Source: a virus. Taken from it: a stretch of DNA of 64,000 bases. A program made the position numbers and the translations under genes. Location: IMG/VR virus record IMGVR_UViG_3300021600_000005, positions 26,169-90,168 of that record, one strand, 5' to 3'. The notes under the pieces were generated by a model. It made no database searches. It saw only the letters and a program-made list of their open reading frames with translations, and was not told the DNA's origin. Below are positions 12,675-63,524 of the stretch, piece by piece (the stretch's first letter is position 1; each line of letters begins with the position of its first letter).

Positions 12675-13718
12675 ATGAATATTATAATTAAAGAACATCA
12701 ATATTTAAAAATATTAACTGAATCTTTAGGGGTTTCTAGAGCAAGTTTACATTATGTTAATGTGATTTATAAAATATTGGAACCTACGGTCTTAAAATTT
12801 TTAAATTCAAATCGTGATTTAAATGAAAAAATAAATATTGATTTAAATGATTTAAAGGAAGTTTATCAAGATTTTCCTGAAGATTATATTGAATTTCCAA
12901 TTGAACAAATTGTTATTAATCTTAATTGTAAAAAAATAAATAAAATTAATGACAATGCGAATTTTTTTTCTGGGGGAGGGGCTTATAGTATTAGACCAAA
13001 AAAAGAAAAAACAACCCATGTAAAAATTCCATCTAAATTCTTACCAAAATATGTTACAGACGAAATAAATAAAACTATTATTTCTGAGTTTGATTTTACG
13101 GTTACTATATTTAAAAACTATGAAGAAACTAATAAAGACGATTTATTGTTTTTATTACGTGATGCAATATCTCATGAATGTAACCATATGTTTGAGTATT
13201 ATAAAAGAAACGAAAACAATGCTCCCGATGTGGATAACAGATTTACCTGGTCAGGAGTTAAAAATTACAACGTACCTAAAAACATTTGGAATATTTGGGA
13301 ACAATTTACAACAATGCTTTATTTTTCTCAACCACAAGAAATGAATGCTATGACACAAGAAGTTTATAGTGTTAGTTTAAGGAAATCTTTTGAAGAATTT
13401 AAACAAGGTGGTTATTGGCGCTCCGCAATTGTTATGGAAAATTTTGACGCTGACGAATTTATGGACAATTTAGTTAATGAGATTAATAAATATAATCCAG
13501 ACTATATTAAACCTATACTAATAAATTTAAGAAATTGGTTTATAAAAGATTATGTAAATTATGGGGTTTCTGAAAAACTTCCAATAAATCAAAAACTTTT
13601 AAGTAAAAAAGAAATTTTTAGTTTGACAAAATTTTTTGAACCAAGAATACGGTTAGCCGGTAAAAAACTTAAATCTAATTTCATTAGGACTTTTTCTATC
13701 CCTAGAGAATCGATATAA
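12675..13718 (+). CDS. Zincin-like metallopeptidase with capsid-targeting-like leader
   Basis: A 347-residue protein. RDAISHECNHMFEYYKR carries an HExxH zinc motif (HECNH) at about residues 172-176; a third ligand is not obvious, though acidic residues follow within 40-60 positions. The N-terminus (MNIIIKEHQYLKILTE/S) ends in a site fitting gp21-type cleavage after residue 16. TATTTATA (12661-12668) lies six bases before the ATG, as for other late-type genes. I infer a head-packaged protease; its substrate and whether it acts in the virion or the infected cell are unknown. Confidence 0.7.
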   Translation: MNIIIKEHQYLKILTESLGVSRASLHYVNVIYKILEPTVLKFLNSNRDLNEKINIDLNDLKEVYQDFPEDYIEFPIEQIVINLNCKKINKINDNANFFSGGGAYSIRPKKEKTTHVKIPSKFLPKYVTDEINKTIISEFDFTVTIFKNYEETNKDDLLFLLRDAISHECNHMFEYYKRNENNAPDVDNRFTWSGVKNYNVPKNIWNIWEQFTTMLYFSQPQEMNAMTQEVYSVSLRKSFEEFKQGGYWRSAIVMENFDADEFMDNLVNEINKYNPDYIKPILINLRNWFIKDYVNYGVSEKLPINQKLLSKKEIFSLTKFFEPRIRLAGKKLKSNFIRTFSIPRESI

Positions 13719-13762
13719 TGACTGGTCAGAAGAAACATTAAATTTTAAGGTATTTATATAAA

Positions 13763-14077
13763 ATGAAAATTAACATAACTAAAACACAAAGAGCAAGATT
13801 GGTTAAGGATTGGTTAAACGATATGTTTTCTGGTGCTGAAATAAAAAATACTGATTATGGTAATTCTTATTATATTAAAAATGAAAAAAACCTTGCTTTT
13901 CAGAATAAAAAAAATAAAGATTTTCGGTTTGATTACGACCTAATTTGGTCATTTTTAGAATCCATTTTTTCACTTGAATATGAAGAACTGCAATCTATCA
14001 CAAAAGACTGGTTGGACGAGACATTAAATTTGAAGGGATATACAACATCTTATTTACGCAACTTATCTTGGACATAG
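13763..14077 (+). CDS. Five-member small-protein family, copy 3
   Basis: A 104-residue member starting MKINITKTQRARLVKDW, with FDYDLIWSFLES and DETLNLKGY blocks and the private tail TTSYLRNLSWT. TATTTATA (13751-13758) is four bases upstream of the ATG. Just before that element, and again after its stop, the DNA repeats the segment coding (W)xDETLNLK. First of three tandem copies leading to dnaK. Confidence 0.82.
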   Translation: MKINITKTQRARLVKDWLNDMFSGAEIKNTDYGNSYYIKNEKNLAFQNKKNKDFRFDYDLIWSFLESIFSLEYEELQSITKDWLDETLNLKGYTTSYLRNLSWT

Positions 14078-14114
14078 TTGGGCGAGACATTAAATTTGAA
14101 GGTATTTATATAAA

Positions 14115-14414
14115 ATGAAAATTAACATAACTAAAACACAAAGGGCAAGATTGGTTAAGGATTGGTTAAACGATATGTTTTCTGATACTGAAATAATTGA
14201 TTCTTATTATGTTAAAAATGGAAAAAAAATTGCTTTTCGGGAGAAAGAAAATAAAGAGTTTTGGTTTGATTATGACTTAATTTGGTCATTTTTAGAATCC
14301 ATGTTTTCACTTAAATATAAAGAACTGCAAGCTATTACAGAAGACTGGGTGGATGAAACATTAAATTTTAGGGGTTATACAACTTCGCCTCACATGTATC
14401 TCGAACAACGTTAG
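14115..14414 (+). CDS. Five-member small-protein family, copy 4
   Basis: A 99-residue member with the same start, an FDYDLIWSFLES block, DETLNFRGY and the private tail TTSPHMYLEQR. TATTTATA (14103-14110) is four bases upstream. Its stop is followed directly by GTGGATGAAACATTAAAT, another copy of its own ETLN-coding segment. Function unknown. Confidence 0.82.
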   Translation: MKINITKTQRARLVKDWLNDMFSDTEIIDSYYVKNGKKIAFREKENKEFWFDYDLIWSFLESMFSLKYKELQAITEDWVDETLNFRGYTTSPHMYLEQR

Positions 14415-14451
14415 GTGGATGAAACATTAAATTTGAAAGTAATTATATAAA

Positions 14452-17362: not shown

Positions 17363-17863
17363 ATGAAAAAAAATATTTTTAATATAGTTGAACTTCGTAA
17401 AACTGTGAGAAAACACATTTTAGAACAAATAGAAAATAAAGAAGAAACAAAACAAAGATGTTTAACTTCTAATGTAATAGCTTTAGATAATATTGTAGGT
17501 CCTTCAAAAATTTTTACAAACTATAATTCAAACACATTGAAAAGAAATGGTGGTATTCATGGTATGGTGGACACTTTGGATTTATTAAAAACATTAAGAT
17601 TACATCCACATATTTCAGATTCCGGTGAACATTTAGCGTACGATTTAATGAATCATTTAAATACGTTTAGAAATAAACATTATTTAGATGAAACAAATTC
17701 TCAATGTCAAAAAGCAATGGATAAAGTTATTGAACTTTATAAAGAAAATGAACATGGTGAAGATTTAGTTAAAGATATCGAAAAAGTTTTATCCCACGCC
17801 CATCCAAGCCCTAGAGCTAAGGAATACTTAAAAAGGTGTATAATTTTAGTTAAAGAAAAATAG
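17363..17863 (+). CDS. Hypothetical protein with capsid-targeting-like leader
   Basis: A 166-residue protein. The N-terminus MKKNIFNIVELRKTVRKHIL ends in ILE/Q at residue 21, fitting the leader pattern of many proteins here. The body is helical with several His residues (RLHPHISDSGEHLAYDLM; LSHAHPSPRAKEYL) but no motif I recognise. ATATTTAT (17337-17344) is 18 bases upstream of the ATG. Followed by the strong terminator at 17908-17940. Confidence 0.7.
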   Translation: MKKNIFNIVELRKTVRKHILEQIENKEETKQRCLTSNVIALDNIVGPSKIFTNYNSNTLKRNGGIHGMVDTLDLLKTLRLHPHISDSGEHLAYDLMNHLNTFRNKHYLDETNSQCQKAMDKVIELYKENEHGEDLVKDIEKVLSHAHPSPRAKEYLKRCIILVKEK

Positions 17864-20269: not shown

Positions 20270-20902
20270 TTACTTATCGGAAAACTTTTTAAAAATTGTT
20301 TTTATTAAACTTTCAATAGTTGAGCTAGACGCGGTAATAAATCCATAAGATGCTAGTCTAATACCAATTTCAGTTATTTGTTTTTCATTTAAACTACCCG
20401 ATGTTGCAATATTAAATATAATTTCTAAAATTGGGATTATAAAAGTATAACTTAACATGTTTATTACTTTATGTATTGTAACTCCTAACCCGCTTAAAAA
20501 ATTTATAAATGTTGTTTTAAGTTCGTCGCTTTTTTCAAGAGAGATTTTAAATTGAGTTAATAAATTTTCAGATTTTATTTTTTCAAAAATTTTTAATAAA
20601 ATATCTTTATTATCTACATAATACGTACATATAATTGCAGTAACAATTAAACTTACATTTAAAGAAGATAATTCTGGAAATTTACCTTCAACAAAATCAG
20701 AAACAGGTTGAAAAAAACCCCCTATACCTGCACCCCAAGTAAATAAAAATTTAAAATCAAGTCCTGTTTGAGTTTCGGCTTTTTTTAAAATATTTTTAGC
20801 AAAACTATACTCGCGTTCAATTGAATCACCAAGTTTTTTACTTACATTTTCAATTAAAATTTTATTTTTTTGACTTTCGTTAATTAAAATTAATATTGAC
20901 AT
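20270..20902 (-). CDS. Membrane protein with capsid-targeting-like leader
   Basis: A 210-residue protein. Starts MSILILINE/SQKNKILIE/N, with two good (I)xE sites after residues 9 and 18. Hydrophobic stretches follow: FLFTWGAGIGGFFQPV, VSLIVTAIICTYYV, IINMLSYTFIIPILEIIF-like and GIRLASYGFITAS. TATTTAT on the coding strand (20915-20909) is six bases upstream. A packaged membrane-active protein is possible, for example one acting at DNA entry; this is inference. Confidence 0.65.
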   Translation of the reverse strand: MSILILINESQKNKILIENVSKKLGDSIEREYSFAKNILKKAETQTGLDFKFLFTWGAGIGGFFQPVSDFVEGKFPELSSLNVSLIVTAIICTYYVDNKDILLKIFEKIKSENLLTQFKISLEKSDELKTTFINFLSGLGVTIHKVINMLSYTFIIPILEIIFNIATSGSLNEKQITEIGIRLASYGFITASSSTIESLIKTIFKKFSDK

Positions 20903-22685: not shown

Positions 22686-22707
22686 CAAAAAATAAGTTTA
22701 AAATAAA

Positions 22708-29106: not shown

Positions 29107-29165
29107 GAAAAATCTTTAATATTATTATGGTACCCTTGAGGTATAAAAACTAAAAATTTAATAGC

Positions 29166-39580: not shown

Positions 39581-40927
39581 ATGAGTTTAAATATAGATAT
39601 GGAAAAAAAAATTAAAGAAAGTCAAGGACTTAAACGTACATTAGTAAACGAAAGTTTAACAAAAAAAGAAAGAAATATTATTAACTCAGTTAAAAAAATG
39701 ATTTCTGAAGCTCCTATTGACTATGAAGGACCTGAAAGAATGGACCCAAATATCGAAAACACAATTACAAAAAAAGAAACCCCATTTCATGGAAACCCGG
39801 CTGTACCTAAAGAAAATCGTGATTTTCTTGAAGTTGTTTCTTCTAAAAGATTTAAAGATTCCGTAGAAAAAGTAAGACGTTATTTAGGAGATACTACTAT
39901 TTTACAAGGAAGAAATCCAGTTAATGATTTAATGCAAATGGCGATGGGTGGTCTTCAAAAAATTATGTCCATAGAATCTAGACATAAAGAATATCTTGAA
40001 AAATTAGCAGTTGAATTAGTTAAAAAAGAATTAGGTATTCCAAAAGGAAGTCTTCAATTTGATGCTAAATTAATACATGGAGGAATGTCAGCCGCTGAAG
40101 GTATGAGAGAAAAACCTGAAGAGCCGGATGAAGAAGAAATTGAAGATGCATTTAAAAATGCTGAAGAAAATCCAAATAAATTAAAAGATTTTGCGGATGA
40201 ATTTGAAAAGTTTAATTTAGAAAAAGCAAAACGAAGATTTATTAATTCTTTAATTCAAGGAGCCGCTTTTAAAGGTGGTCATATGTATGTTTTAATGTCA
40301 GATAAAATAAATCAACTAAACCCAGAATTAATGAACCTTTATGGTGTTACCCAATCATTAATGGAACACTTATATTGGATTTATCCGGATATGGAATCAA
40401 TGGCAGCGTCAGGTGGAGGTCAAATGGGACAATCTGAAATTGACGACGAAACCGACCCCCCAACAGTAATTGCAAGAGCTGGAACTTTTCCATTATTAGT
40501 ACATGAACTTGTTAAAGGTGTTTATGAAGTATTTGGTACACATGGTTTACCTGATGACCCTAAACAATCTGAAATGGTTCAAGGGGCTGAAGATACTTTA
40601 CCTGCAGAAATATGGGATTCTAGATTAGGTCCAATATTTTGGGAAAAATTGCAAGACACATATCCTGACGAACTTTTTGAAGAAGACACTAAATTTATTC
40701 AACATTATTTATTTGTTCGTTTTTCAAAAATTTCAGCGAAAGATTTTTTAAAATTAGCAAACTCAATTTTAAAAGGAGATAGTGCTGGTAAACAAGCCAT
40801 CCAAAGAATGGTAAATGAAATTATTGCAGATTTAAAAAAACAAGATTTAGAACAAGCATTAGGGTCTAGTAACGATGACAATGACGATGACGTTGATGAT
40901 GTTGACTTATCTTCATTAGGGCTGTAG
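39581..40927 (+). CDS. Virion-type protein upstream of terminase, with leader
   Basis: A 448-residue protein. Leader MSLNIDMEKKIKESQGLKRT, then LVNE/S and a good site at residue 43 (KKMISE/APIDYEG). A mostly helical body with GNPAVPKENRDFLEVVSSKR and LLVHELVKGVYEVFGTHGLP, ending in an acidic stretch (NDDNDDDVDDVDLSS). It sits immediately before the terminase gene. A portal-region or head-completion role is plausible. No small terminase is recognised nearby; this protein is too long and shows no helix-turn-helix. Confidence 0.7.
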   Translation: MSLNIDMEKKIKESQGLKRTLVNESLTKKERNIINSVKKMISEAPIDYEGPERMDPNIENTITKKETPFHGNPAVPKENRDFLEVVSSKRFKDSVEKVRRYLGDTTILQGRNPVNDLMQMAMGGLQKIMSIESRHKEYLEKLAVELVKKELGIPKGSLQFDAKLIHGGMSAAEGMREKPEEPDEEEIEDAFKNAEENPNKLKDFADEFEKFNLEKAKRRFINSLIQGAAFKGGHMYVLMSDKINQLNPELMNLYGVTQSLMEHLYWIYPDMESMAASGGGQMGQSEIDDETDPPTVIARAGTFPLLVHELVKGVYEVFGTHGLPDDPKQSEMVQGAEDTLPAEIWDSRLGPIFWEKLQDTYPDELFEEDTKFIQHYLFVRFSKISAKDFLKLANSILKGDSAGKQAIQRMVNEIIADLKKQDLEQALGSSNDDNDDDVDDVDLSSLGL

Positions 40928-46517: not shown

Positions 46518-47234
46518 ATGAAAATAGGAATTTTAAAATCAAACGTAGATAAGTTTTTAACTGAATCATATTCAAAAGGAACTTTTAAAAACGAAGTTAT
46601 TAATTTTAATAAATTAGTATTAACTAAAAAAAATGTTGCAAAATTATTTTATATTTATGATGATTTAAAAACCAATAAAGGTCTTAATGAGTCTATTGCA
46701 ACTGAATATTTAAACGAAACAATTTTTTCATTTGAAAGTACTTTAAAAAAAGTAAAACAAAGTGATTTAGAAAAAATTAAAAAATGGGTAGGAAAAACAA
46801 ATTCAATTAATTCTTATTCTGAAGTCGATTATTTATTATATCCAACACTTTCAAAGTTAGAAGAAAAAATAGAATCAAAAAAAATAATTATTGAAACTCT
46901 TAAACAATCCCCAGTGGTTGAAAATAAAGAACTTATAAATTTACCAATGCAAACAATGGTAAATGTGGCAAATAGAACTATTTCAAATTATATTGATAAT
47001 TTAAACGAATCTGAAAAAGATGAATTATTTAAATTTTTATCAATGGATAATTCCGAGTTAAATAATAAATTTAACGATTTAAAAGAAAACATTAAAACAA
47101 AGTTATCAGTTTTAAATGAATCTTCTGACGAAGAAACAAATAAGAAAATTAACGAAACTTTGCAAATGGTTGAATCAGAAAAATGTGAGTTAATTAATTT
47201 TTTTAAACTTAAAAATCTTAACGATAGTCTTTAA
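46518..47234 (+). CDS. Head-module protein with leader, after portal
   Basis: A 238-residue helical, Lys/Glu/Asn-rich protein. Leader MKIGILKSNVDKFLTE/S (residue 16). Repeated ESxE/NESEK helices, no catalytic motif. ATATTTAT (46496-46503) is 14 bases upstream. In T4 this interval holds small prohead core proteins (67, 68); a core or internal role is likely but sequence similarity is not visible. Confidence 0.7.
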   Translation: MKIGILKSNVDKFLTESYSKGTFKNEVINFNKLVLTKKNVAKLFYIYDDLKTNKGLNESIATEYLNETIFSFESTLKKVKQSDLEKIKKWVGKTNSINSYSEVDYLLYPTLSKLEEKIESKKIIIETLKQSPVVENKELINLPMQTMVNVANRTISNYIDNLNESEKDELFKFLSMDNSELNNKFNDLKENIKTKLSVLNESSDEETNKKINETLQMVESEKCELINFFKLKNLNDSL

Positions 47235-48059: not shown

Positions 48060-48791
48060 ATGGATTATCAAATAAATAATAACAATATTTTTGGAAAAAA
48101 AACTATTCTAATTGAAGAAGATGCGGGATATATTTCTCCAAAACATGAATTCAATCAAAAAGTTATTAATGAATCAAAAAACCTTATGGACTACTCAAAA
48201 CCATTTGAATTTTATGCGGTTCTTCAAAAATATAATGTTCCCAATAGAAATGGTAGAATATACCCCGAAAAAATCTTAAAAAGAGAATCTGAGAACTATA
48301 AAAAAGCAATCAATAAAGGTACATCACTTTCTGAATTAAATCACCCTGAGTCATCTTTAATCGATTTAGATAGAGTTTCTCACATTATCAATGAAATTTG
48401 GTGGGAAGGAAACGTTTTAATGGGAAAACTTAAGTTACTTACAAGTCCAGGTTTTCATGAAAGAGGGGTTTGCTCAACAAAAGGAGATTTAGCCGCAAAT
48501 TATCTTAGACAAGGTGTTACTTTAGGAATTTCTTCAAGAGGAGTTGGTTCATTAAAAAAAGTTGGCGAACAAAATGAAGTTCAAGACGATTTTGAATTAA
48601 TATGTTTTGATTTAGTATCTTCACCATCAACACCTGGAGCTTATCTTTTTAATAATCCTGATGATAGAATGAAATATGATGAAAATCTTGAAGAAGAGAA
48701 AAAAATAAGTATAGAAACGTCAAATAATGGAAATGGAACCAAATCACTTGACTTAATGAAAAAATTAAACGATTATTTGGGAAATCGTTAA
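48060..48791 (+). CDS. gp21: Prohead core protease (gp21-like)
   Basis: A 243-residue serine protease of the T4 gp21 type. YAVLQKYNVPNRNGRIYP, SELNHPESSLIDL (catalytic His), GVTLGISSRGVGS (catalytic Ser) and FDLVSSPSTPGAY are family landmarks. In T4 it cleaves scaffold, capsid protein and internal proteins after (L/I)xE during maturation. The many (L/I)xE leaders in this window would be its substrates. ATATTTAT lies at 48006-48013. Followed at 13 bases by the DUF4494-like gene. Confidence 0.92.
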   Translation: MDYQINNNNIFGKKTILIEEDAGYISPKHEFNQKVINESKNLMDYSKPFEFYAVLQKYNVPNRNGRIYPEKILKRESENYKKAINKGTSLSELNHPESSLIDLDRVSHIINEIWWEGNVLMGKLKLLTSPGFHERGVCSTKGDLAANYLRQGVTLGISSRGVGSLKKVGEQNEVQDDFELICFDLVSSPSTPGAYLFNNPDDRMKYDENLEEEKKISIETSNNGNGTKSLDLMKKLNDYLGNR

Positions 48792-49195: not shown

Positions 49196-50713
49196 ATGTC
49201 AAACAAAAAATCTCTAGTAGAAGAAGCTATTATCCAAATGAAAAATTTGGAGGAAACCGTAGCTCAAAACGCAAAAGGAATACTTGCTTCAACAATGAAG
49301 AAAGAAATCAAAGACTTAGTTAAAGAATCTATCGTATCTGAAAAAGATGACGATGAGATTGACTCTAATGTCAAAATGGATATGGATACCAATTCTGATG
49401 AAGATGACGTTGAAGTAGATATGAATGTTGATTCTGATGAAGATGATACTGACATGGATATGAACATGGATTCTGATAAAGATGACATGGATATGGACAT
49501 GGATGTTAATTCTAATGAAGATGATATGGATATGGACGAACCTATCGACCTTACAAAACATTCTGATGAAGAAGTTATGAAAGTTTTCAAACTTATGGGA
49601 CCTAATGACCAAATTATTGTTACTAAAGATAATTCAGGAAATATTAACCTCAAAGATGGGGGTAATGATACTGAATATATGTTAGTTGGCGAAAATGAGG
49701 AAGAATATTATAACCAAGAAATGAGTGAAGATGATGAAGATGATGACGATTCAGATGACATGTATATGAGTAATGTTGATAATCAAGATATGGATATGGG
49801 AACAAATGACTCATCAATTGAAGATATCATTAATGATGTTTTTGGTAGCTCTGAAGAAATGGGAGAACAAGAAGATGAATTTTTAGATGATGAAGATTCA
49901 GAAGTTGTTTATGAAATTGAAATGGATGAAGAAGATGATTCTATGGAAATGGATGAAGATGATGATTCTATGGAAATGGATGAAGAAGAAGAAGACGAAG
50001 AATATATGTCTGAATCTAAAATGTCTATTAAACCTAAAGGCGTTGGAATGGGAAGTCCAAAATTCAAATATTCGTCTAAACCAAATCAAGGTCAAGGTTT
50101 TAAAACAAAAATGAAGCAAGGTAACCTTAAAATGGGTACTGGTAAACCTAAATTCGAATTCAAAGAAGGTGAAAATCTTGATATGGAAATGACTGAAGTT
50201 AAACCAAAATTCAAAAAGTTTGAAACTAAAGAAGCATCACGTACTTACGGAAATGGGTCTAAATCTGGTCGTGGTTTAAGAAAAGGTCACACACCAAATA
50301 GAAACTTAACTTTCGAAAGTAAAACAAATAATGAAATTCAAATTCTTAGAGAGAAAAATGAAGAGTACAGAAAAGCACTTAACGTTTTTCGTAATAAATT
50401 GACTGAAGTTGCGGTTTTCAATTCAAACTTAGCTTACGCTACACGTTTGTTCACTGAACACACAACCTCAAAACACGAAAAAATCAATATCCTTAGACGA
50501 TTTGATGGTGTTGAATCAATTAAAGAATCTAAAAATTTGTACAAATCAATAAAGGACGAATTATTAAATACAACAAACCAAACAATGAATGAATCAATTG
50601 AAAGAAAAATTGAAAACACTCCTGTTACCGGTTCAGTTAATTTAATTGAGTCAAAAACATATGAAAACCCTCAATTCGCAAGAATGAAGGACCTTATGTC
50701 AAAAATAAAATAA
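49196..50713 (+). CDS. gp22: Acidic prohead scaffold protein (gp22-like)
   Basis: A 505-residue protein directly before the capsid gene, in the position of T4 gp22. Helical start (LVEEAIIQMKNLEETVAQNA), long repetitive acidic region of D/M/N runs (DMDMNMDSD... type, about residues 60-125, and EMDEDDDSMEMDEEEEDEE near 245-265), basic middle (GSPKFKYSSKPNQGQGF), and a conserved-looking helical C-terminus (ILREKNEEYRKALNVFRNKL). (V/I)xE sites occur near the start (KESIVSE/K). The scaffold is expected to be degraded by the protease. Acidic repeats much longer than in T4. Confidence 0.82.
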   Translation: MSNKKSLVEEAIIQMKNLEETVAQNAKGILASTMKKEIKDLVKESIVSEKDDDEIDSNVKMDMDTNSDEDDVEVDMNVDSDEDDTDMDMNMDSDKDDMDMDMDVNSNEDDMDMDEPIDLTKHSDEEVMKVFKLMGPNDQIIVTKDNSGNINLKDGGNDTEYMLVGENEEEYYNQEMSEDDEDDDDSDDMYMSNVDNQDMDMGTNDSSIEDIINDVFGSSEEMGEQEDEFLDDEDSEVVYEIEMDEEDDSMEMDEDDDSMEMDEEEEDEEYMSESKMSIKPKGVGMGSPKFKYSSKPNQGQGFKTKMKQGNLKMGTGKPKFEFKEGENLDMEMTEVKPKFKKFETKEASRTYGNGSKSGRGLRKGHTPNRNLTFESKTNNEIQILREKNEEYRKALNVFRNKLTEVAVFNSNLAYATRLFTEHTTSKHEKINILRRFDGVESIKESKNLYKSIKDELLNTTNQTMNESIERKIENTPVTGSVNLIESKTYENPQFARMKDLMSKIK

Positions 50714-50745: not shown

Positions 50746-52602
50746 ATGGGAGCATTATTAGAATCAGGTCTTGTTGGTAACATAGGTTTAAAACACCTTA
50801 AGGTTATTAAAGAAGATACTATTAACAAATGGGACAAATTAGGGTTCCTTGAAGGTCTTAAAGGCCACCTAAAAGAAAATGTTGCGCAGTTATATGAAAA
50901 CCAAGCGTCACATTTAATAAACGAAGCGACTTCAGATGGTGCATCAGGTTCTTTTGAAACTGTTGTATTTCCAATTGTAAGACGTGTGTTTTCTAAATTA
51001 TTAGCTAACGATATTGTATCTGTACAAGCTATGAACTTACCTATTGGTAAATTATTCTTCTTTATTCCTAAAATTCAAGGATATAGTGGAGCAACTGGAG
51101 CTAACGCTCAATACAACCCAGATTCTGGAGACCATTATTCACCTTTAGGTTCTAATGGAGCACCAGCATCAAACACTGCGGGTTACACAGGTGCTGGAAC
51201 TTACGCTAAGAATCTTTATGATTTATATTATGAAGGTACTGAACCAGGTCTTGACCCAGGTGGACTTTTTGACTACTCAAAAGGTCGTTGGTCAGCAATT
51301 ACTGCTGCAGCATCAATCCAAAAATGGTATAATGGTTCTTTACAAGACGCTGTTATTTCAGGAACTAGTAATGCTAGTGGACTTATTGCTGGTGGTAACA
51401 TAAGAAAAGTTATTATCAAAATGAATGGTTTTGCTGATACCGGAGCTGGTAAATTAATCGGTCCTGATGGTAATGAAATGGACACTGAATCTTTCCTTTC
51501 TGACTTAATTGTTTATACTGGAGCTGGTTTATCAATGGTAGCAGGTACTCCTTGTACTGTTTCTACTGGTCCATTATTATATAGAGTTGTTACTCAACAA
51601 TATGGTAGCGGTATCGTTAACGGAATAAATACAACAACATCAACTTCATGGCCTTCTACAGGTAATGGTGGTTCATTCAGAAATGTTTGTAACGCAAATG
51701 GTGAAATTTATTTAGAAGTTGACTTATCTTGTCCAGTTTGTGCTGATTGTAACGCAACATCTTTAGATGGTTACACTGGTACAACTATATCAACTGGTCA
51801 AACTAGTACTTCATTCTATTGTGCATGGAAACGTTACGAAACTCTTGAATTTGAAGACAAAATCGGTGAGGTTTCTTTTGATTTAGATTCTGTTACAGTT
51901 TCTGTGACTGAAAGAAAATTAAGAGCTCAGTGGTCTCCAGAATTAGCTCAAGACGTTGCGGCTTTCCACAACATTGATGCTGAAGCTGAATTAACCGCTT
52001 TATTATCTGAACAAGTTGCAGCTGAAATCGACCGTGAAATCCTTCGTGATTTACGTAAAGGTGCAGCTTGGCAATTACGTTGGGATTATAATGGTTGGAG
52101 AAGAATTTCTGCAACAACCTCTTATACTCAAAAAGATTGGAACCAAACATTAATTACAACAATTAACCAATTATCTGCTCAAATTCACAAGTCAACTCTT
52201 CGTGGTGGAGCTAACTGGATTGTTGTATCAAGTGAGGTTTCTGCAATCTTTGATGATTTAGAATACTTCCACGTATCTAACGCTTCACCTGAGCAAGACC
52301 AATACAACATGGGTATTGAAAGAGTAGGTACATTAGCAGGTCGTTACCAAGTGTATCGTGACCCTTATTTCCCAGCTAACCAAGTGTTAATTGGACATAA
52401 AGGTACTTCGTTACTTGATACTGGTTACATCTACGCACCGTACGTACCATTACAATTAACACCTACAATGTATAACCCGTTTAATTTTACTCCAATAAAA
52501 GGAATAATGACAAGGTATGCTAAGAAGATGGTTAATAACAGATTCTACGCTAGAATTACCGTTGACGGTGTTCGTACTTTTGATTTAAGAGAATTAAGAT
52601 AA
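50746..52602 (+). CDS. gp23: Major capsid protein (gp23-like)
   Basis: A 618-residue HK97-fold capsid protein of the T4 gp23 family. Residues 1-60 form a propeptide ending LINE/ATSDGA, a clean gp21-type site close to where T4 gp23 is cut. Then FETVVFPIVRRVFSKLLAND and MNLPIGKLFFFIPK. Later VTVSVTERKLRAQWSPELAQ, DAEAELTALLSEQVAAEIDR and YVPLQLTPTMYNPFNFTP are gp23 hallmarks. An insertion (about 120-370) is rich in Gly/Thr/Ser. G+C at codon third positions is higher than in the neighbours, consistent with high expression. Confidence 0.96.
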   Translation: MGALLESGLVGNIGLKHLKVIKEDTINKWDKLGFLEGLKGHLKENVAQLYENQASHLINEATSDGASGSFETVVFPIVRRVFSKLLANDIVSVQAMNLPIGKLFFFIPKIQGYSGATGANAQYNPDSGDHYSPLGSNGAPASNTAGYTGAGTYAKNLYDLYYEGTEPGLDPGGLFDYSKGRWSAITAAASIQKWYNGSLQDAVISGTSNASGLIAGGNIRKVIIKMNGFADTGAGKLIGPDGNEMDTESFLSDLIVYTGAGLSMVAGTPCTVSTGPLLYRVVTQQYGSGIVNGINTTTSTSWPSTGNGGSFRNVCNANGEIYLEVDLSCPVCADCNATSLDGYTGTTISTGQTSTSFYCAWKRYETLEFEDKIGEVSFDLDSVTVSVTERKLRAQWSPELAQDVAAFHNIDAEAELTALLSEQVAAEIDREILRDLRKGAAWQLRWDYNGWRRISATTSYTQKDWNQTLITTINQLSAQIHKSTLRGGANWIVVSSEVSAIFDDLEYFHVSNASPEQDQYNMGIERVGTLAGRYQVYRDPYFPANQVLIGHKGTSLLDTGYIYAPYVPLQLTPTMYNPFNFTPIKGIMTRYAKKMVNNRFYARITVDGVRTFDLRELR

Positions 52603-54756: not shown

Positions 54757-54800
54757 AGTAATAAATAGTTAACCTGGGGATATTTATAAATAAAAATGTT

Positions 54801-55226
54801 ATGATAAAGAATTATAATTTCAATATATCGGAAGAAGAAAAAAGACAAATTTTAAATCTTCATGAATCAAGAACTAAACGTCATTATTTGATTAATGAAC
54901 AAAAAATTCATTTTAATGATGCAATGGAACTGGAAAATGTAAAAAAAATTCAAGCTCAATTAGGATTTACGGGGGCGGACCTTGATGGTAAACTTGGACC
55001 TAAAACATTGGCGGCAATTACCGCTAAGTTGACTTCACCGGCAGCAGAAGTTAAAAAAGACGATAAAGTAACACCGGCAGCAGAAGTTAAAAAAGACGAT
55101 AAAGTAACACCGGCAGCAGAAGTTAAAAAAGACGATAAAGTAACACCGGCAGCAGAAGTTAAAAAAGACGATAAAGTAACACCTGAAACTCCAAAAATTG
55201 ATTTTTTTAATGATGATAATTATTAA
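54801..55226 (+). CDS. PG-binding protein with leader and tandem repeats
   Basis: A 141-residue protein. Leader NISEEEKRQILNLHES...HYLINE/Q (site after residue 33; same type as in 21261 and 58287). Residues 40-82 form PG_binding_1 (IQAQLGFTGADLDGKLGPKT). The tail is four perfect 12-residue repeats (TPAAEVKKDDKV), encoded by 36-base DNA repeats from about 55035. TATTTATA (54781-54788) is 12 bases upstream. It lacks a catalytic domain, so it may anchor or guide a packaged partner to peptidoglycan. Confidence 0.8.
   Translation: MIKNYNFNISEEEKRQILNLHESRTKRHYLINEQKIHFNDAMELENVKKIQAQLGFTGADLDGKLGPKTLAAITAKLTSPAAEVKKDDKVTPAAEVKKDDKVTPAAEVKKDDKVTPAAEVKKDDKVTPETPKIDFFNDDNY
55045..55188 (+). repeat. 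36-bp tandem repeat, four copies
   Basis: Within the 54801 gene: unit CCGGCAGCAGAAGTTAAAAA + AGACGATAAAGTAACA, four head-to-tail copies with no visible differences (the last one ends ACACCTGAA). Perfect identity points to recent expansion. Confidence 0.85.
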
Positions 55227-55744: not shown

Positions 55745-56812
55745 ATGGATGTTAAATACGTTATAAGTGATTTAGAGAAAATACGTTTATTAATAGAATA
55801 TGACATAAGTAAAACACGTTTTGAAAACAACCAGTTTATTAGTGAACAATCAGATTTAAGGGCGGTAACATCATCTGCCGGGGCAACGGCATCATATTAT
55901 GATGGACCATATTTTTCACCTGGAGATTGGGACACTCATGATTTTTTAAACTGTGTTGAAATCACATCGTCTGTGTTAGGTATGTTACCAACACCATTGG
56001 CACCTCTTTTTTGGGGAATTTCGACAATTGCGGGAGTAGCTGACGCTGTAACATATTTTCAGGAAGATGACCCTTATATGGGAACTATGATGATGGCATT
56101 AAGTGTAATTCCAGGTGGTGAACTTTTAAAAATATTCAAATCTAGTAAAGTATTTCAAAAAATTGGAGTTAACGGACTTAAAAAGTTAATTAAATCATAT
56201 AAATCAGGTAATTTACAAAAAGAATCTGTAAAATACTTAAAAGAATTTACAAACATTTTTAAAGAGCCTTCAGTTATTAAACAAGTTAATAAGGGGATTA
56301 TTGAAGCGTCACTATTAGAATTAAAAAATAATTTAAAAAATAAATCGTCAAAATTTTTAATAAACTTTTTAATTTATTTATATAAATTCTCTAAAGGGGT
56401 AGGAAAAATAACATTCAAAGTAGGCGGAACCGTATTTGGTATAGATAAACTATATCTTCTTATTTTTGCGGACAATGAAAAATATTTTAATAGCCGTCAA
56501 AAAAATGAATTACGAATGTTAATAAATAAAACATTGGGAATTACAAGTGCGGTAAAAGATTATGAAAACAATTCTGAAGTTAAAAAACAATTATTGGATA
56601 ATATTGATAAACAATTAAAAAATCCTGAAATGATTGAAGAGGTACTTGGTGATTTAAAAAATGCTACAGTGAAGGATTATGAAAATTTTAACCCTTCAAG
56701 TTTTGATTCAATTCCTAACGCAACAGAAATTGATAATAAACCAAACGCAACAGAAATTGATAATAAACCAAACGTAACTAATTTAAGAAGTGTTAATTCT
56801 TTTATAAAATAA
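55745..56812 (+). CDS. Membrane-active virion-type protein with leader
   Basis: A 355-residue protein. Leader MDVKYVISDLEKIRLLIEYD...NNQFISE/Q (residue 34). Residues 65-125 carry hydrophobic, Gly/Pro-rich segments (SSVLGMLPTPLAPLFWGIST; YMGTMMMALSVIPGGEL), a pattern I associate with phage internal proteins predicted to enter membranes. Another hydrophobic region near 200-245. C-terminus with NATEIDNKP repeats. TATTTATA at 55720-55727. May help DNA or proteins cross the inner membrane; inferred. Confidence 0.68.
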   Translation: MDVKYVISDLEKIRLLIEYDISKTRFENNQFISEQSDLRAVTSSAGATASYYDGPYFSPGDWDTHDFLNCVEITSSVLGMLPTPLAPLFWGISTIAGVADAVTYFQEDDPYMGTMMMALSVIPGGELLKIFKSSKVFQKIGVNGLKKLIKSYKSGNLQKESVKYLKEFTNIFKEPSVIKQVNKGIIEASLLELKNNLKNKSSKFLINFLIYLYKFSKGVGKITFKVGGTVFGIDKLYLLIFADNEKYFNSRQKNELRMLINKTLGITSAVKDYENNSEVKKQLLDNIDKQLKNPEMIEEVLGDLKNATVKDYENFNPSSFDSIPNATEIDNKPNATEIDNKPNVTNLRSVNSFIK

Positions 56813-56836: not shown

Positions 56837-58276
56837 ATGGAAAAAAAAATAATTAACGAAATAACAAGAATCCAAGAATTAATAGGTAAAAAAATACTAG
56901 TAGAAGGAGGCACTCCTACATTGTTTACTAAACTAATTAAATTTTTTGAAAAAAACGTAGGCGACGATGGACTGCCTTTTATGGGGCCATCGAACCCAGA
57001 CCTTAAATTACTAAAAGCTGAAAAAAGTTTATTAAAAAAATTTGATATAATTTTAGATTACGCTAATCATAGTTCGATGATTCGTGAACAATTAATTAAA
57101 TTTATTAATGCAGGAATGCCTCCAGCTGAATTACAAAAACTTAATGATTTTAAAACTTTTTTAATTACATATTCAAATAAAGATAAAACAATCCTTAAAA
57201 ACGCTGTCAATAAAAAATTAGATTTAATGATACCTGATTCTAAGATTAGAGAAATTTATAAACTTGATTTTGATGATTATGTTGACAATTTAAAACCAAC
57301 ACCAATACCGCCTAAAAAAATACCGGTTAAAAAAGTTAAAAAAGTTAAACCCGCGCCAACTAATGTTCCAAAAGATGATAAAATGTTAGGAGATGAAATT
57401 AATAAATCAATTGATGATGCTTTTGTTAATAAAAAAATTCCATTAAAACACATTCGAAGATTTAAAACTGAATTTGAAAAAGCCGTCATTAAACAAGTAG
57501 ATAAAATTCCAAAAGAAACTATTGATAAACTTAATTTTTGTATTAAGGAGTTAGAAAAAATACCAGGTTTGGAACGTCAAAAATTAGTAGAAACTATAGT
57601 AAGTGATTATGAGAGATTATCAGGTAAAAAAATGCCTTTAAGGGAGACACAAAGAATTAAAAACTTTTTATTAGGAAAAAATTTTAATAAAGCGGAATTT
57701 GATGGCACATTTTTTGGGACATTAGGAGCCATTCAGGACAACGCAGTGTCGTTTTTAATACATTGGTTTAGTAAATGTTTGTTATCAACTGGAATTTATG
57801 GTGCAAGTTATGCTGCCGATGCGTTTGCAGAGTTTCATGGTAATGAAAAAGCAAAACAATTAATGTATGACAAAGGTGATACTGCATGGGGAGCGTTTTT
57901 TATTCGAATATTAGGAGGTCCATTTGGACTTCTTTATACAATCATAGCGGATTTTATCCCATCAATGTGGAACTCACTTGTGGCGTTTAAAAACCATAAT
58001 AAAGATGACAGAGGATTTATAAAACGTAAAATTGACAATTTCGGAATGTGGACTTTTAAAAAAGAACTAAAATACAAATATGATGTATTAGACGTTTATA
58101 TTAATCTAATAACAATTAATAAAGACGGATTTCCAGTTTATGATTACAAAGGTACTCAATATGAAATTTATAATGTAGACTTAACAGACGTTAACAAAGC
58201 TCATATAATTATTAAAGGTGAAACACCTGAAGATGATAAAACGTTTTATTTAACGGGACCACAATTTAAAAAATAA
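56837..58276 (+). CDS. Large leader-bearing virion-type protein with membrane segments
   Basis: A 479-residue protein. Leader IINEITRIQELIGKKILVE/G (residue 23), close to that of the 42820 gene. Helical N-terminal half, a PIPPKKIPVKKVKKVKP linker near 155, then helices and a hydrophobic part (LLSTGIYGASYAADAF; FFIRILGGPFGLLYTIIADF). ATATTTATA (56824-56832) ends four bases before the ATG. Probably packaged and membrane-interacting; no named family. Confidence 0.68.
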   Translation: MEKKIINEITRIQELIGKKILVEGGTPTLFTKLIKFFEKNVGDDGLPFMGPSNPDLKLLKAEKSLLKKFDIILDYANHSSMIREQLIKFINAGMPPAELQKLNDFKTFLITYSNKDKTILKNAVNKKLDLMIPDSKIREIYKLDFDDYVDNLKPTPIPPKKIPVKKVKKVKPAPTNVPKDDKMLGDEINKSIDDAFVNKKIPLKHIRRFKTEFEKAVIKQVDKIPKETIDKLNFCIKELEKIPGLERQKLVETIVSDYERLSGKKMPLRETQRIKNFLLGKNFNKAEFDGTFFGTLGAIQDNAVSFLIHWFSKCLLSTGIYGASYAADAFAEFHGNEKAKQLMYDKGDTAWGAFFIRILGGPFGLLYTIIADFIPSMWNSLVAFKNHNKDDRGFIKRKIDNFGMWTFKKELKYKYDVLDVYINLITINKDGFPVYDYKGTQYEIYNVDLTDVNKAHIIIKGETPEDDKTFYLTGPQFKK

Positions 58277-58286: not shown

Positions 58287-58961
58287 ATGAAAAACAGATT
58301 AATAATAACCAATGAAGAAAAAAATAGAATTTTATCAATACATAAAATTGCTATTAACGAATCTAACATGTCCAAATTTTTAAAAAAAAGTTTGGTAATT
58401 AAAGAACAAGATTTAGATAATGCTCCAAGTGAAAAAAACCCACCCCCTTCAAAAACTAAGGACAAAATTGATAATGTTAAAAAAAAAGGAAAAGAGATTA
58501 TCGATAAAATTAAAGATGTTAAAGATGAAGTAATTGACGACCCAAATAATAATGGTAGTAAGATATCCAGATGGTGGGAGGGGATTCAAGATGACCCAGA
58601 AAATGATGGTACAGTATTAAACAGAAAAAAAACTCCAGGGCAAACTAAAATAGAAAATGCGTGGCAATCTGTTAAATTATATGCTATTCAAAATAAATTA
58701 AAAAGTCATACAGAAACAACTGGCACTCATGATGATGCTAAAACATATTATGATATTAAAGGGACAAAGTTTTACGAAGACGGTTATAAAATGGGAACAG
58801 ATAAAAAACTTGTTCCGTATTTTGAAGATGATGATGCGTTAACAATTGTTTATCCAGATAACAAATCAGAAACTAAAACAGAAACTAAACCAGTTACAAC
58901 ACCTACTCCAACAGTAATTCAAAAACCAACATACACATCTACTGAAGATAAAGACTTTTAA
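58287..58961 (+). CDS. Leader-bearing hydrophilic virion-type protein
   Basis: A 224-residue protein. Leader LIITNEEKNRILSIHKIAIN-E/S (residue 25) with a second site SLVIKE/Q at 40. The rest is Lys/Asp-rich, with a disordered middle and ASP/THR-rich tail (ETKTETKPVTTPTPTVIQKP). Ten bases after the previous gene and no own late element, so likely co-transcribed. Function unknown. Confidence 0.68.
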   Translation: MKNRLIITNEEKNRILSIHKIAINESNMSKFLKKSLVIKEQDLDNAPSEKNPPPSKTKDKIDNVKKKGKEIIDKIKDVKDEVIDDPNNNGSKISRWWEGIQDDPENDGTVLNRKKTPGQTKIENAWQSVKLYAIQNKLKSHTETTGTHDDAKTYYDIKGTKFYEDGYKMGTDKKLVPYFEDDDALTIVYPDNKSETKTETKPVTTPTPTVIQKPTYTSTEDKDF

Positions 58962-58972: not shown

Positions 58973-59779
58973 ATGAAAACAGAAATAGGTAGAATAAAAA
59001 TAAAACAAATATTAAAGTCGTATATTAAAGAAAATAAAACGTCTAATGTTATTTTAGAGCAAAACAATGATACACAATTAGTGAGTAAATTAAAAGGGTT
59101 GATTAAATGTTTTAACTCTACATTAGTACCTACTGTAACTAAGATGGGTGGTGAGGGGGATTATAAATTTGCAATTAGAACAACTGGAAAGTTAGGAGGT
59201 TATCGATATTTTTTTATAAATGGAAAGGCGGCACAACAACCAAAAGATGGAGTTTTAAAATACGTCTCTGATTGGAATCCTAGTGAATGCGCTCCATCAC
59301 AACAATCTGCATCATATACAACACAACAAAAGTCATTTATTGAAAGTTGGAAATCCAAACATCCTGGAGCTAAATTTCAAGATGATTTACGAGGAGAAGA
59401 ACAAAGCTCATATACCGAACAACTAGTTAGTCCAAAATCTGACGGTATATTTACCGAAGATTTATACATGTGGTTACCACCCGCAAATTTAAAATTGGGT
59501 AGTACGATTACCGACGCGTTTAAATTACAGGCGGACGCTCAAACACCAACAGATAATAAAGGTTGTAAAGAGGCAGTTAAAACTTTTTATGACGCATATA
59601 AAAACCAACTTGCAATTGACCCAAGTGTGGTATCATCTTTAAACAAACAAGTTAAAGCATGTAGAACCCGTTACTATCAAAAATGGGGATTTTTACAAGG
59701 AGGAAATAAGTTAGATAAAATGTTAGAAGAGTTAGCTGGAGTAACTTCAACTGAGCCTTGGTATGTAAGTGCTCGTTAA
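58973..59779 (+). CDS. Leader-bearing hypothetical virion-type protein
   Basis: A 268-residue protein. Leader MKTEIGRIKIKQILKSYIKE/N (residue 20) and a second site NVILE/Q at 31. Then a beta-type domain (YKFAIRTTGKLGGYRYFFIN), a Gln/Ser linker, and a helical domain ending in ACRTRYYQKWGFLQGGNKLD. It resembles the group of proteins around it in design. No catalytic motif recognised. Confidence 0.68.
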   Translation: MKTEIGRIKIKQILKSYIKENKTSNVILEQNNDTQLVSKLKGLIKCFNSTLVPTVTKMGGEGDYKFAIRTTGKLGGYRYFFINGKAAQQPKDGVLKYVSDWNPSECAPSQQSASYTTQQKSFIESWKSKHPGAKFQDDLRGEEQSSYTEQLVSPKSDGIFTEDLYMWLPPANLKLGSTITDAFKLQADAQTPTDNKGCKEAVKTFYDAYKNQLAIDPSVVSSLNKQVKACRTRYYQKWGFLQGGNKLDKMLEELAGVTSTEPWYVSAR

Positions 59780-60053: not shown

Positions 60054-60692
60054 ATGGATAAAAAAACAATAATTGATATTGCTTTTGATAGTATAATTCA
60101 AAGAACAAATTCTATTGATGAAGTTTCAACTATAAATAGGGGGTCTTATAGTCTTCCTTTAACACCAGGTGTTAAGTATTTTAAAAAAAATGAATTAGCT
60201 CCATATGAGATTCAAGTGTCAAAGTATGATAGTGCGGATTTGGCTTTTGATAGTTATGATGGGTCACTTGACGTATCAAAATCTAAAGCGTCCAAAATTG
60301 AAAAAATTTCTAAAAAAATATCAAAATATTTAAAAAACCATCCAAATAATAATGATGATGATGGTGACGTATTAAATCAATCGCCCGGTAAAATCAATGA
60401 AGACTTGGGGGTTTGGTTTGGGACAAAAACTAAACCTAAGGGGAGTTCTGAACCAAAAGGTCCTTGGGTTAACATATGTAAAAAGGTCGACGGAAAACAC
60501 CCTCCTTGTGGACGTAATCAGGCGACTGACAAAGCATATCCTAAATGTAGAGCGTCCGGGGTTGCGGGTAAGATGAGTGATTCACAAAAAAGGTCCGCAT
60601 GTTCACAAAAAAGAAAAGCGGAAAAATCCCATCCTAAAACAGGAACTGGGAATTCTCCTAAAATGGTGTCATATCGGCCAAGAAAAAAATAA
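60054..60692 (+). CDS. DUF5872-like basic Cys-containing protein
   Basis: A 212-residue protein. The C-terminal 90 residues (DLGVWFGTKTKPKGSSEPKG, PPCGRNQATDKAYPKC, KRSACSQKRKAEKSHP) match a module common in large phages and giant viruses, annotated I believe as DUF5872: basic, with four Cys that may bind metal. N-terminal region is less conserved. ATATTTATA (60039-60047) is six bases upstream. Possible DNA-binding virion protein. Confidence 0.75.
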   Translation: MDKKTIIDIAFDSIIQRTNSIDEVSTINRGSYSLPLTPGVKYFKKNELAPYEIQVSKYDSADLAFDSYDGSLDVSKSKASKIEKISKKISKYLKNHPNNNDDDGDVLNQSPGKINEDLGVWFGTKTKPKGSSEPKGPWVNICKKVDGKHPPCGRNQATDKAYPKCRASGVAGKMSDSQKRSACSQKRKAEKSHPKTGTGNSPKMVSYRPRKK

Positions 60693-61388: not shown

Positions 61389-61793
61389 ATGAAAAAAATT
61401 ATAAAATTAACTGAAAACGATTTAATTAATTTAGTAAAAAAAATTATAAAAGAACAAATTGTTACTCCTAAACCTTATGTTGTTATTGGTGGGGTTACAT
61501 ATAAAAATAAAAAGTTAACAACAAAAAGAAAAGTTGAAAGGTTTTTAGAATATAGTTTTCCTACTGATTTAGGTTTAGATTCTAACTATTTAAAACATAT
61601 TAAACAAACTGATGTTGATAGTATGTTAAATTATGTGGCCAGAACTGGTGGCGATTTTAAGAATTCTAATGGTTATACAAAATTAATAACTTATTTTAAA
61701 GATATTAAAGGTCCTCTTGAAAAATTTAACGAAAAAATATCACAATTTGTTAAGATGCAATATTCAGCCGCTAACTTGACAGTATCAATTTAG
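61389..61793 (+). CDS. Leader-bearing small protein
   Basis: A 134-residue protein. The start KKIIKLTENDLINLVKKIIK-E/Q (residue 22) is nearly the same as in the 63204 gene and is followed by an unrelated body (DFKNSNGYTKLITYFKDIKG). ATATTTAT (61363-61370) is 18 bases upstream. A textbook example of the leader shared between non-homologous proteins here. Confidence 0.72.
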   Translation: MKKIIKLTENDLINLVKKIIKEQIVTPKPYVVIGGVTYKNKKLTTKRKVERFLEYSFPTDLGLDSNYLKHIKQTDVDSMLNYVARTGGDFKNSNGYTKLITYFKDIKGPLEKFNEKISQFVKMQYSAANLTVSI

Positions 61794-61907: not shown

Positions 61908-62219
61908 TTATTTAATCATTACAGAATCTAAATTATTAGACCGAACACGATTAATAGTTGTATCTGTAATTAATTTTGGTATAGAATCTTGTTTAATTTT
62001 AATTTTTTTAACTGTTTTTTTAACAACTTTAACACTATCAACATTAATTAATGATTTAATTACAGGACTTATTACTTTAACCGTATCAAACACAATTATT
62101 TTTTTTCCATTACTGTTTAATCTCGAATTACTACTACATATTATCACAATAATAAGTAAAAATATAGGGATTATTGTAAATAAAATACCGGTATAAAATA
62201 GTTTATCAAACTTTGTCAT
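61908..62219 (-). CDS. Membrane-anchored periplasmic-type protein
   Basis: A 103-residue protein with a hydrophobic N-terminal anchor (LFYTGILFTIIPIFLLIIVI followed by ICSSNS) and a Lys/Val/Ser-rich remainder (KSLINVDSVKVVKKTVKKIK). Layout recalls an inner-membrane spanin subunit, but no partner is identified. Overlaps the next gene upstream by 14 bases. Confidence 0.6.
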   Translation of the reverse strand: MTKFDKLFYTGILFTIIPIFLLIIVIICSSNSRLNSNGKKIIVFDTVKVISPVIKSLINVDSVKVVKKTVKKIKIKQDSIPKLITDTTINRVRSNNLDSVMIK

Positions 62220-62634
62220 TGAATAGATTTTGATATATGTTAGTTAATGAATGTTTAACATTAGATTTAATTTCCATTTCCATTTTTTCTCGTCTACGTT
62301 CTACTTCATGGTCAAATATATGGGTTAATTTCTCATAAGGCCTACCCCAAATATCAATATTATAACTGTAGTTATGGTTAACGATTGTCATTTGATTGGG
62401 TTCAATAATAATAAAAATTTGAGTTTCATCGCTTTTAATATATCTTTTTTTTGAAATTGGAGAAATTAATAAACTAGTTGATTCTTTTTCCATTAAATTA
62501 TGACATATTGCAAAACATTCATAATCATACTCACCTCGTTTTTTTAACTCTTTTGGGGTCAGCATTTTATAATACTTAATCGATAAAGATTGTAAAAATC
62601 TTCTAAATTTGTGTTTATTAATATTGGTTTTCAT
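62206..62634 (-). CDS. Hypothetical protein
   Basis: A 142-residue protein (MKTNINKHKFRRFLQSLSIK start) with FIIIEPNQMTIVNHNYSYNI and a Glu/Arg-rich C-terminal helix (HEVERRREKMEMEIKSN). TATATTTG is seen on its coding strand at about 62650, pointing to early expression. Not recognised. Confidence 0.6.
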   Translation of the reverse strand: MKTNINKHKFRRFLQSLSIKYYKMLTPKELKKRGEYDYECFAICHNLMEKESTSLLISPISKKRYIKSDETQIFIIIEPNQMTIVNHNYSYNIDIWGRPYEKLTHIFDHEVERRREKMEMEIKSNVKHSLTNIYQNLFNDKV

Positions 62635-62696
62635 TTGTAATAGAATATACTACAAATATAAGAAGTTTTTTTGATTAAACCAAAAAATAAATTTTA

Positions 62697-63182
62697 TTAT
62701 TTTTTAACCCAGTTTCCGCCTTTACTATTGTAATGTTTAACTGCGGCTCCATTACAATAAGCACTTGGACAAACTTTGTATCTAGATTTTGCCCAAGCCA
62801 ACGACGCTTTCCATAATTTTTGATTTGTTGCGGTGTTTTTTTTCTTTTTTTCTGTTAATTCTTCTGATTCTCCCATAATATCTTCATGGTGATTCATATC
62901 GTCAGTAAAGTTATTTTCAGTCGATTTGGTTTCATTCATTAAAAAATCAAATACTTGGTCAATAGATTCTTTTGCGGTTGCAATATGGTCTTGAGCCCAA
63001 TCATGTCCATTTTCTAATATATTATGAATTTGTTCTTCATTTTCTTGTAATAAAATTTCGGTTTGTCTATGAATTTGTTCTAAATTTGAAAAAAACATAT
63101 ATCTATCATTGTTTTTTTCATGAGTTTCATTTAATACTTTTTTAACAAGTTTTTTAATAAGTGAATTTTCAAAATTTTTCAT
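62697..63182 (-). CDS. Leader-bearing small protein with basic C-terminal module
   Basis: A 161-residue protein. Leader MKNFENSLIKKLVKKVLNE/T (residue 19). Acidic helical middle (QTEILLQENEEQIHNILENG). C-terminal 40 residues (LWKASLAWAKSRYKVCPSAY, then NGAAVKHYNSKGG) form a basic module repeated in many phage and giant-virus proteins. Likely internal head protein. Confidence 0.72.
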   Translation of the reverse strand: MKNFENSLIKKLVKKVLNETHEKNNDRYMFFSNLEQIHRQTEILLQENEEQIHNILENGHDWAQDHIATAKESIDQVFDFLMNETKSTENNFTDDMNHHEDIMGESEELTEKKKKNTATNQKLWKASLAWAKSRYKVCPSAYCNGAAVKHYNSKGGNWVKK

Positions 63183-63203
63183 AATATTAATTAAGGTATT
63201 GGT

Positions 63204-63524
63204 TTAATCTTCAGTTATATCAAATTCATCAATTACTGTTTTGGCGTCAATCATGTTTAATTTTATTAAACGTTTTGTTAATTGAGCTTTTCCCATTTTT
63301 CTAAGATATCTAACAACAATTGGAGGAATATCGTCTTGATATTTACCAAAAAGTTGAGACATAATTTCACTTTCTTTAGGTAATGGTTCAAAATCGGCTT
63401 TTGACCTTGCGGCTCTCATTCCAGATTTACCTTTTTCGTAATTAGGAGTTTCTTCAGTTTCGTTAATTATTTTTTGAACTAATTTTGTTAAATCCGTTTC
63501 TGTTAATCTAATCGTTTTTTTCAT
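63204..63524 (-). CDS. Leader-bearing small protein
   Basis: A 106-residue protein. Start KKTIRLTETDLTKLVQKIIN-E/T (residue 22), the same leader type as at 61389. The body is short (SQLFGKYQDDIPPIVVRYLR) and helical. No further family match. Confidence 0.72.
   Translation of the reverse strand: MKKTIRLTETDLTKLVQKIINETEETPNYEKGKSGMRAARSKADFEPLPKESEIMSQLFGKYQDDIPPIVVRYLRKMGKAQLTKRLIKLNMIDAKTVIDEFDITED

Follow-up and report, generated by a model that had tools for sequence, protein, structure and literature searches.

The 64,000-nucleotide stretch of viral DNA analysed here (the window; bases 26169-90168 of the 90,168-base IMG/VR record IMGVR_UViG_3300021600_000005; G+C 28.5%) raises the question of why many of its proteins, otherwise unrelated, begin with a short leader that ends in (L/I)xE. 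In phage T4, the prohead protease gp21 cuts after L/I-x-E, the ten-residue capsid-targeting sequence (CTS) of IPIII is enough to direct foreign proteins to the head interior, and CTS-like sequences are known on other basic proteins of close phage T4 relatives (PMC9026906). For IPIII, a Glu-to-Asp change at the final leader residue is reported to leave head entry intact while blocking cleavage. The window contains a T4-type head block composed of terminase, portal, gp21 protease, gp22-type scaffold and gp23 capsid protein (Table 1). An earlier note on this DNA had pointed to the gp21-like protease and to a LINE/A site after residue 60 of the capsid protein, which we found to be kept in all nine sequences listed, and had interpreted the leaders as capsid-targeting. 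The conservation edge of the leaders, their swaps, their virus specificity, the gp21 gene together with the gp23 site, the promoter motif and the virions of cyanophages support this interpretation, and from them we infer cleavage and packaging in this phage. The shared N-termini are thus very probably capsid-targeting sequences that gp21 removes, functionally equivalent to the CTS of phage T4.

In addition to the window, we examined the remaining 26 kb of the record, the contigs G005 (291,867 bases) and G018 (308,574 bases; probably complete, since it has an exact terminal repeat of 123 bases), and the cultured phages immuto, Maribacter phage Molly_1 and cyanophage S-CREM2. The leaders that recur on unrelated bodies form at least five families, labelled T1-T5; the label "leader type T4" denotes one of these families and is distinct from phage T4. 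The leaders are 11-35 residues long and lie at the start of the open reading frame (ORF), not inside it. Their consensus sequences are MKKxIRLTESDLxRLVKRVINE/Q (T1), (F)IISEEEKxRILxLHExxxKxxYLxE/Q (T2), MNLQENIxRIxxMMGxxxE (T3), MKIIITESQYxxLxE/S (leader type T4) and MK(E/D)LI(K/R)K(I/V)L(K/R)E (T5). Profiles of T1-T4 were searched against 1,058 ORFs from four genomes, each represented by its 60 N-terminal residues, with 2,816 internal 60-residue segments as the control. This search across the record and related phages, which the earlier note had called for, returned 114 N-termini at 8 bits or more versus 2 control segments (T1, 25 vs 1; T2, 19 vs 0; T3, 19 vs 1; leader type T4, 51 vs 0). By T1-T5, leaders are borne by 23/133 ORFs in the window's record, 52/334 in G005 and 49/376 in G018. 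The anticipated set much larger than that of phage T4 is therefore borne out, with 49-52 candidates per ~300-kb genome. Among 3,070 distinct ORFs from the loci compared, the 652 leader proteins fall into 354 body clusters. A sixth family, the leader FDLKKFLVENKLTxNSxLLxE from the cultured Flavobacterium phage immuto, is found on 60 body clusters, 59 of them with the site. The note's three or more types, common to non-homologous bodies, are thus exceeded. In Maribacter phage Molly_1 (L233-L235; host Maribacter forsetii DSM18668), about 12 proteins carry a leader family of their own, IKSLIESxxxVxxIVxxLTE/A, which was spotted by eye. Predicted cleavage sites in the cultured phages include AITE/A (108009) and VLTE/A (107604) in Molly and IITE/S (111675) in immuto.

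The conservation of the leaders ends at the predicted cleavage site. Over 57 T1 body clusters, the information content falls from 3.2 bits at Glu22 to 1.6 bits at residue 23, a position often occupied by Gln, and to ~0.5 bits at residue 24, with still smaller values beyond. When [ILV]xE was sought in a short window at this edge, with equally wide windows further along as controls, (I/L/V)xE was present in 68/70 T1 sequences versus 4-11 in the controls, and in 50/53 T3 sequences versus 2-7. An edge at the protease motif in three unrelated leaders of differing length is what a removable leader predicts. Alternatively, the leaders could dock to another phage or host machine (e.g., RNA polymerase, a replication compartment or the membrane), with (L/I)xE being incidental. 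The leaders are indeed unlike the phage T4 CTS, and their genes lie mostly beyond the head block. However, a docking tag does not account for a Glu with I, L or V two residues before it that is kept in three unrelated families of differing lengths, with conservation ending right there, nor for the same site in the capsid protein.

Leaders are also exchanged between bodies. Bodies with more than one leader type make up 22 clusters, although one of the clusters mixing types, with 95 members, is chained and does not count as clean. In the clear cases, the homology begins at the cleavage point and the junction is the Glu, as in GLINE/QNSEPPICSNTGC versus LLIE/QAETPVCSAGGC, in the T2 leader ..GLINE/QNSEPPICSNTGCKGTYTGPEFEN versus the T3 leader ..LLIE/QAETPVCSAGGCSGKYVGPEFDN, and in the T1 leader ..RVINE/NQEEVDRILDKIS versus the leader type T4 ..KFLIE/NQEVVDRILDKIS. 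Swaps that join at the Glu bond also speak against a docking tag. They contradict, in addition, a reading in which the proteins come from a single old family, or a small number of them, with C-terminal parts that have diverged past recognition while the N-terminus was merely better kept. Proteins of ~110 residues with leader type T4, which are alike past the leader, and the 95-member cluster that mixes types through chained matches fit that reading; homologous bodies with different leaders and the unrelated folds among the bodies (VanY, lysozyme, M23, P-loop kinase, ECF sigma factor and 2H phosphoesterase) do not, and we regard it as highly improbable.

The codons of the leaders address whether the DNA or the peptide is preserved. 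Promoter motif and leader often move together, so that the repeated 5' ends could be recombination platforms, in which promoter and gene start are copied as DNA and the peptide is functionless. At positions of the T1 leader with the same residue, however, codons differ in 43% of pairs, where background usage predicts 51%. Silent positions are thus nearly as varied as the background while the residues are fixed, indicating that the peptide, not the DNA, is under selection and leaving the recombination platform with very little probability.

A TATTTAT motif occurs ~10-30 bases before start codons, and its distribution links the leader genes to the structural genes. It lies within 45 bases upstream of 66/124 leader genes, 15/30 homologs of immuto structural genes, 2/23 homologs of replication and nucleotide genes and 145/666 other genes; leader genes differ from early genes (p = 4e-5) and not from late genes (p = 0.84). 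Because it is common to leader and structural genes and rare before early genes, TATTTAT looks like a late promoter. The late promoter of the phage T4 style, TATAAATA, sought in the sense direction, showed no enrichment upstream of leader genes. Leaders do not occur equally on early enzymes; none of the 23 replication and nucleotide homologs has one. Since a docking tag would not explain why leader genes have the promoter motif of structural rather than early genes, we consider that alternative unlikely.

The leaders are specific to viruses and to lineages. A pattern covering T1 residues 1-16, which therefore does not include the cut site, matched 97 stretches of IMG/VR viral contigs with 104 ORFs, of which 72 distinct proteins of at least 60 residues form 57 unrelated body clusters; 257 Gb of bacterial and archaeal genomes contained no match to it. 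A tblastn search for T1 in cultured phages found no match, and the T1 pattern had none in Lak phages, 634-735 kb phages, Molly, immuto or S-CREM2, indicating that leader families are lineage-specific. The gp21 protease (PHROG 207) is present in all six T1-bearing contigs of at least 290 kb and in 5/22 shorter ones; since all six long contigs have it, fragmentation is the likely reason why it was not found in 17 of the 28.

Virion data are available for T4-like cyanophages, which carry a different leader sequence. In S-CREM2, we compared ORFs with the pattern (F/Y)xxF(L/I/V/M/F)xE in their first 45 residues with the virion list in Table 3 of PMC10665884. Six ORFs match. All five with the motif at or close to the N-terminus are in the virion, namely a SAM hydrolase, an APH kinase, a cytidylyltransferase, a protein annotated as Cas9 and gp136. 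The remaining ORF, whose motif lies at residue 19 and beyond, was not detected there (p = 0.002). Likewise, the S-SCSM1 virion enzyme NMNAT starts with MKSFLQFLKE/A (PMC9602691), a start shared by 0/23 proteins not marked as virion in the same stretch. As far as these sources show, the principle holds where it can be checked. Like the proteins studied here, these are unrelated virion enzymes with one common leader ending in (L/I/M/F)xE; unlike them, they have a leader of the phage T4 kind (MKxFxxFLTE), and only about five carriers were found. The parts of PMC10665884 and PMC9602691 drawn on here do not mention this leader.

The closest known system is that of phage T4 itself, in which IPI, IPII, IPIII and Alt (PMC9026906) likewise share a short N-terminal leader ending in (L/I)xE on unrelated bodies. 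There, too, the leaders are encoded beside gp20-gp21-gp22-gp23, and the gp23 propeptide ends at the same motif. The phage T4 CTS has 6-10 residues, however, whereas the leaders here are often longer (11-35), differ in sequence and fall into at least five families within one clade; four cargo proteins in phage T4 compare with ~50 candidate carriers per genome here, known from sequence alone. Since the leader sequences are unlike, we do not claim common descent with the phage T4 CTS. The system is best read as one expanded about tenfold in kinds of cargo relative to phage T4, with leader families differing between lineages. The inner-body and ejection proteins of phiKZ and SPN3US (PMC5694885) are also a large internal load that a gp21-related protease cuts after a Glu motif, but those phages belong to another group, and their propeptides are mostly long (several exceed 100 residues) with no common short leader family.

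Since each tag stops precisely where the head protease would cut, the leader proteins are probably taken up by the head and delivered to the host together with the DNA. In such a pathway, a leader of ~11-35 residues would bind the gp22-type scaffold core during prohead assembly and thereby draw the attached protein into the prohead. During head maturation, gp21 would cut after (L/I/V)xE and release the cargo, which would remain with the DNA in the head, enter the next host alongside it and act on that host early in infection. Leader and cargo are separate modules, and recombination has joined the few leader families of each lineage to dozens of unrelated, mostly uncharacterised proteins.

Several points weigh against this interpretation. 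Packaging and cutting in this phage clade are deduced from sequence; by eye, T1-T5 are unlike the MKxFxxFLTE type of phage T4 and the cyanophages; and accessory regions at a distance from the head block are where the leader genes are concentrated. No TATTTAT of their own precedes 58/124 leader genes, which operons could explain. Many leader type T4 proteins are alike past the leader, so that ordinary homology may explain part of this family, and a usable (L/I)xE is missing from some of its members, though few. In addition, the T5 set and the immuto types were delimited by regular expression.

On balance, we lean towards a stronger reading in which every particle of these T4-like phages brings ~50 different proteins into the host through interchangeable leaders, with continually exchanged cargo that acts before phage genes are read. 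The arsenal would then include wall hydrolases, kinases, an Acb1-like anti-CBASS enzyme and an ECF sigma factor, and leader profiles would list the injected effectors of uncultured phages from sequence. While the general CTS idea is already known (PMC9026906), what is new is the scale, the existence of several families, their swapping between bodies and the presence of such leaders in Bacteroidota-type phages; we found no earlier description in the open-access papers searched, a search that left subscription journals and preprints aside. Injected phage proteins are known for a few model phages only. If the leaders are what we propose, such proteins become readable from the genomes of a widespread uncultured phage group, an initial hypothesis, namely action on the host at entry, becomes available for hundreds of functionally uncharacterised protein families, and the leader of each lineage can serve directly as a tag for packing proteins into heads.

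Most leader bodies match no known family. Those recognised include a VanY carboxypeptidase, lysozymes, an M23 peptidase, a Tae4-like amidase and peptidoglycan-binding and LysM domains, and also P-loop kinases, a GNAT acetyltransferase and a pterin dehydratase. The peptidases and membrane-active proteins first suggested are not established as typical cargo; HExxH metalloproteases are not significantly enriched among leader bodies (p 0.18). The bodies have isoelectric points similar to those of other phage proteins, and thus are without the basic character of the phage T4 internal proteins. PADLOC matches among them are few and weak. A 2H phosphoesterase body with a T3 leader (L185, 2400-2963, minus strand) scores just above the Pfam cut-off for Acb1. 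Acb1-like 2H phosphoesterases with a T3-type N-terminus occur in three contigs (L185, L124 and L181), and a Molly homolog (118992) is without the leader. An ECF sigma factor carries leader type T4 in L153 (4140-4685), with a longer homolog in L145 (7912-8919), and the L153 protein is possibly injected. Since the Acb1-like and ECF sigma factor bodies are single cases or small groups, any role of theirs in the host is conjecture.

All coordinates given in the earlier note are correct, and 14 of its 16 named leaders are supported by a family profile, by homologs that keep the site or by swaps; for 55745, 56837 and 58973, the backing consists of a near relative or family resemblance. The list was incomplete, as it overlooked 60054 and, in the 26 kb of the record that precede the window, ~14 further leader genes. 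Two named leaders were rejected. In 19282 (NITE/S), the homolog G018|22058 aligns from within a longer protein, and in 34722 (KIWE/L), KIWE lies within a stretch conserved with the body, while in Molly a different, own leader precedes the same LNPSIW. A further candidate, 21261, is T2-like without a usable site.

Table 1. Leaders, head genes and related features of the window.
Feature	Positions	Strand	Remarks
Leader type T4, KILTE/S; body of unknown family	12675..12722	+	profile 8.6 bits
Leader KHILE/Q	17363..17425	+	homologs KHLIE/Q (G018), T2 leader ending YFFE/Q (L097)
Leader type T4-like, KILIE/N (gene 20270)	20849..20902	-	G018 homolog LLIE/S
Two LxE sites, LTE254/S and LNE259/A, in 34722	35472..35498	+	end point of relatives' stand-alone nucleotidyltransferases
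43-residue N-terminal extension ending MISE/A, head-cluster protein	39581..39709	+	RLNE/A in G018, G005
Terminase large subunit	40944..42713	+	PHROG 5989, E 1.4e-24
Leader type T3, GILNE/N, on VanY D,D-carboxypeptidase + peptidoglycan-binding body	42820..42882	+	12.1 bits; Pfam VanY 1.3e-21
Portal protein gp20	44661..46496	+	PHROG 213, E 1.8e-63
N-terminal site FLTE/S	46518..46565	+	E/SY kept in most relatives
gp21-type prohead protease	48060..48791	+	PHROG 207, E 6.6e-44
gp22-type scaffold	49196..50713	+	homolog of immuto scaffold, E 1e-6
Propeptide of major capsid protein gp23, expected cut LINE60/A	50746..50925	+	PHROG 138, E 1.3e-66
TATTTAT late-type promoter motif, example upstream of leader gene 54801	54781..54787	+	
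Leader type T2, YLINE/Q	54801..54899	+	profile 44.8 bits
Leader, T2-like by eye, FISE/Q	55745..55846	+	same junction in near relative L096
Leader, T3-like by eye, ILVE/G	56837..56905	+	L096 homolog ILVE/A
Leader type T2, AINE/S; second site LVIKE/Q at residue 40	58287..58361	+	profile 27 bits; L096 has AIDE/S, VIKE/Q
Leader, T5-like by eye, YIKE/N	58973..59032	+	kept in L096 only
N-terminus SIDE/V	60054..60122	+	homologs LKE/ATS, LRE/ATS or LNE/AT there
Leader type T1, IIKE/Q	61389..61454	+	profile 40.2 bits
Leader KVLNE/T (gene 62697)	63126..63182	-	same body: T1 leader in L016, L197; T5-like in G005
Leader type T1, IINE/T (gene 63204)	63459..63524	-	profile 47.5 bits

The protein of gene 34722 (34722-36767) is a fusion of a nucleotidyltransferase part with wall-peptidase-like and lysozyme-like parts, the latter two recognised by eye and by weak Pfam matches. 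Its nucleotidyltransferase part has relatives in Lak phages, 634-735 kb phages, Maribacter phages and cyanophages. Because the stand-alone relatives end at LTE254/LNE259 and the C-terminal part is elsewhere a separate protein with a T2 leader, the fusion is predicted to be cut there, at a likely internal processing point.

Within the head gene block, 39581 and 46518 may be core or head proteins. The latter is more plausibly a component of the prohead core than cargo, as it lies in the gp67/gp68 position between portal and gp21 and has many further (L/I)xE sites, as in prohead core proteins. The protease has an ILIE/ site of its own at residue 19, which is kept in relatives, and the scaffold is acidic, with several (L/I)xE sites and a late-type TATTTAT promoter. 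The capsid protein is related to those of Flavobacterium phage immuto, Microcystis phage Mel-JY01 and other T4-like phages, and the relatives of the phage point to a host among the Bacteroidota. Directly after the capsid gene, on the opposite strand, lies a homing endonuclease gene (52656-54269, minus strand; PHROG 3339, E 8e-97).

Elsewhere in the window, paralogs of ~100-120 residues that start with MKINITKTQ or MKxIITE share a common C-terminal part; five copies form two clusters (467-1121, minus strand; 13763-14757, plus strand), and many more are found in L002. A DnaK-type chaperone gene (14917-16788) has DNA ~71% identical to a stretch of a 634-kb uncultured phage (LR745206). A single tRNA-Arg(tct) gene lies at 22614-22686, and a region of ~1.7 kb (27429-29165) contains hardly any ORFs except 60-residue ones.

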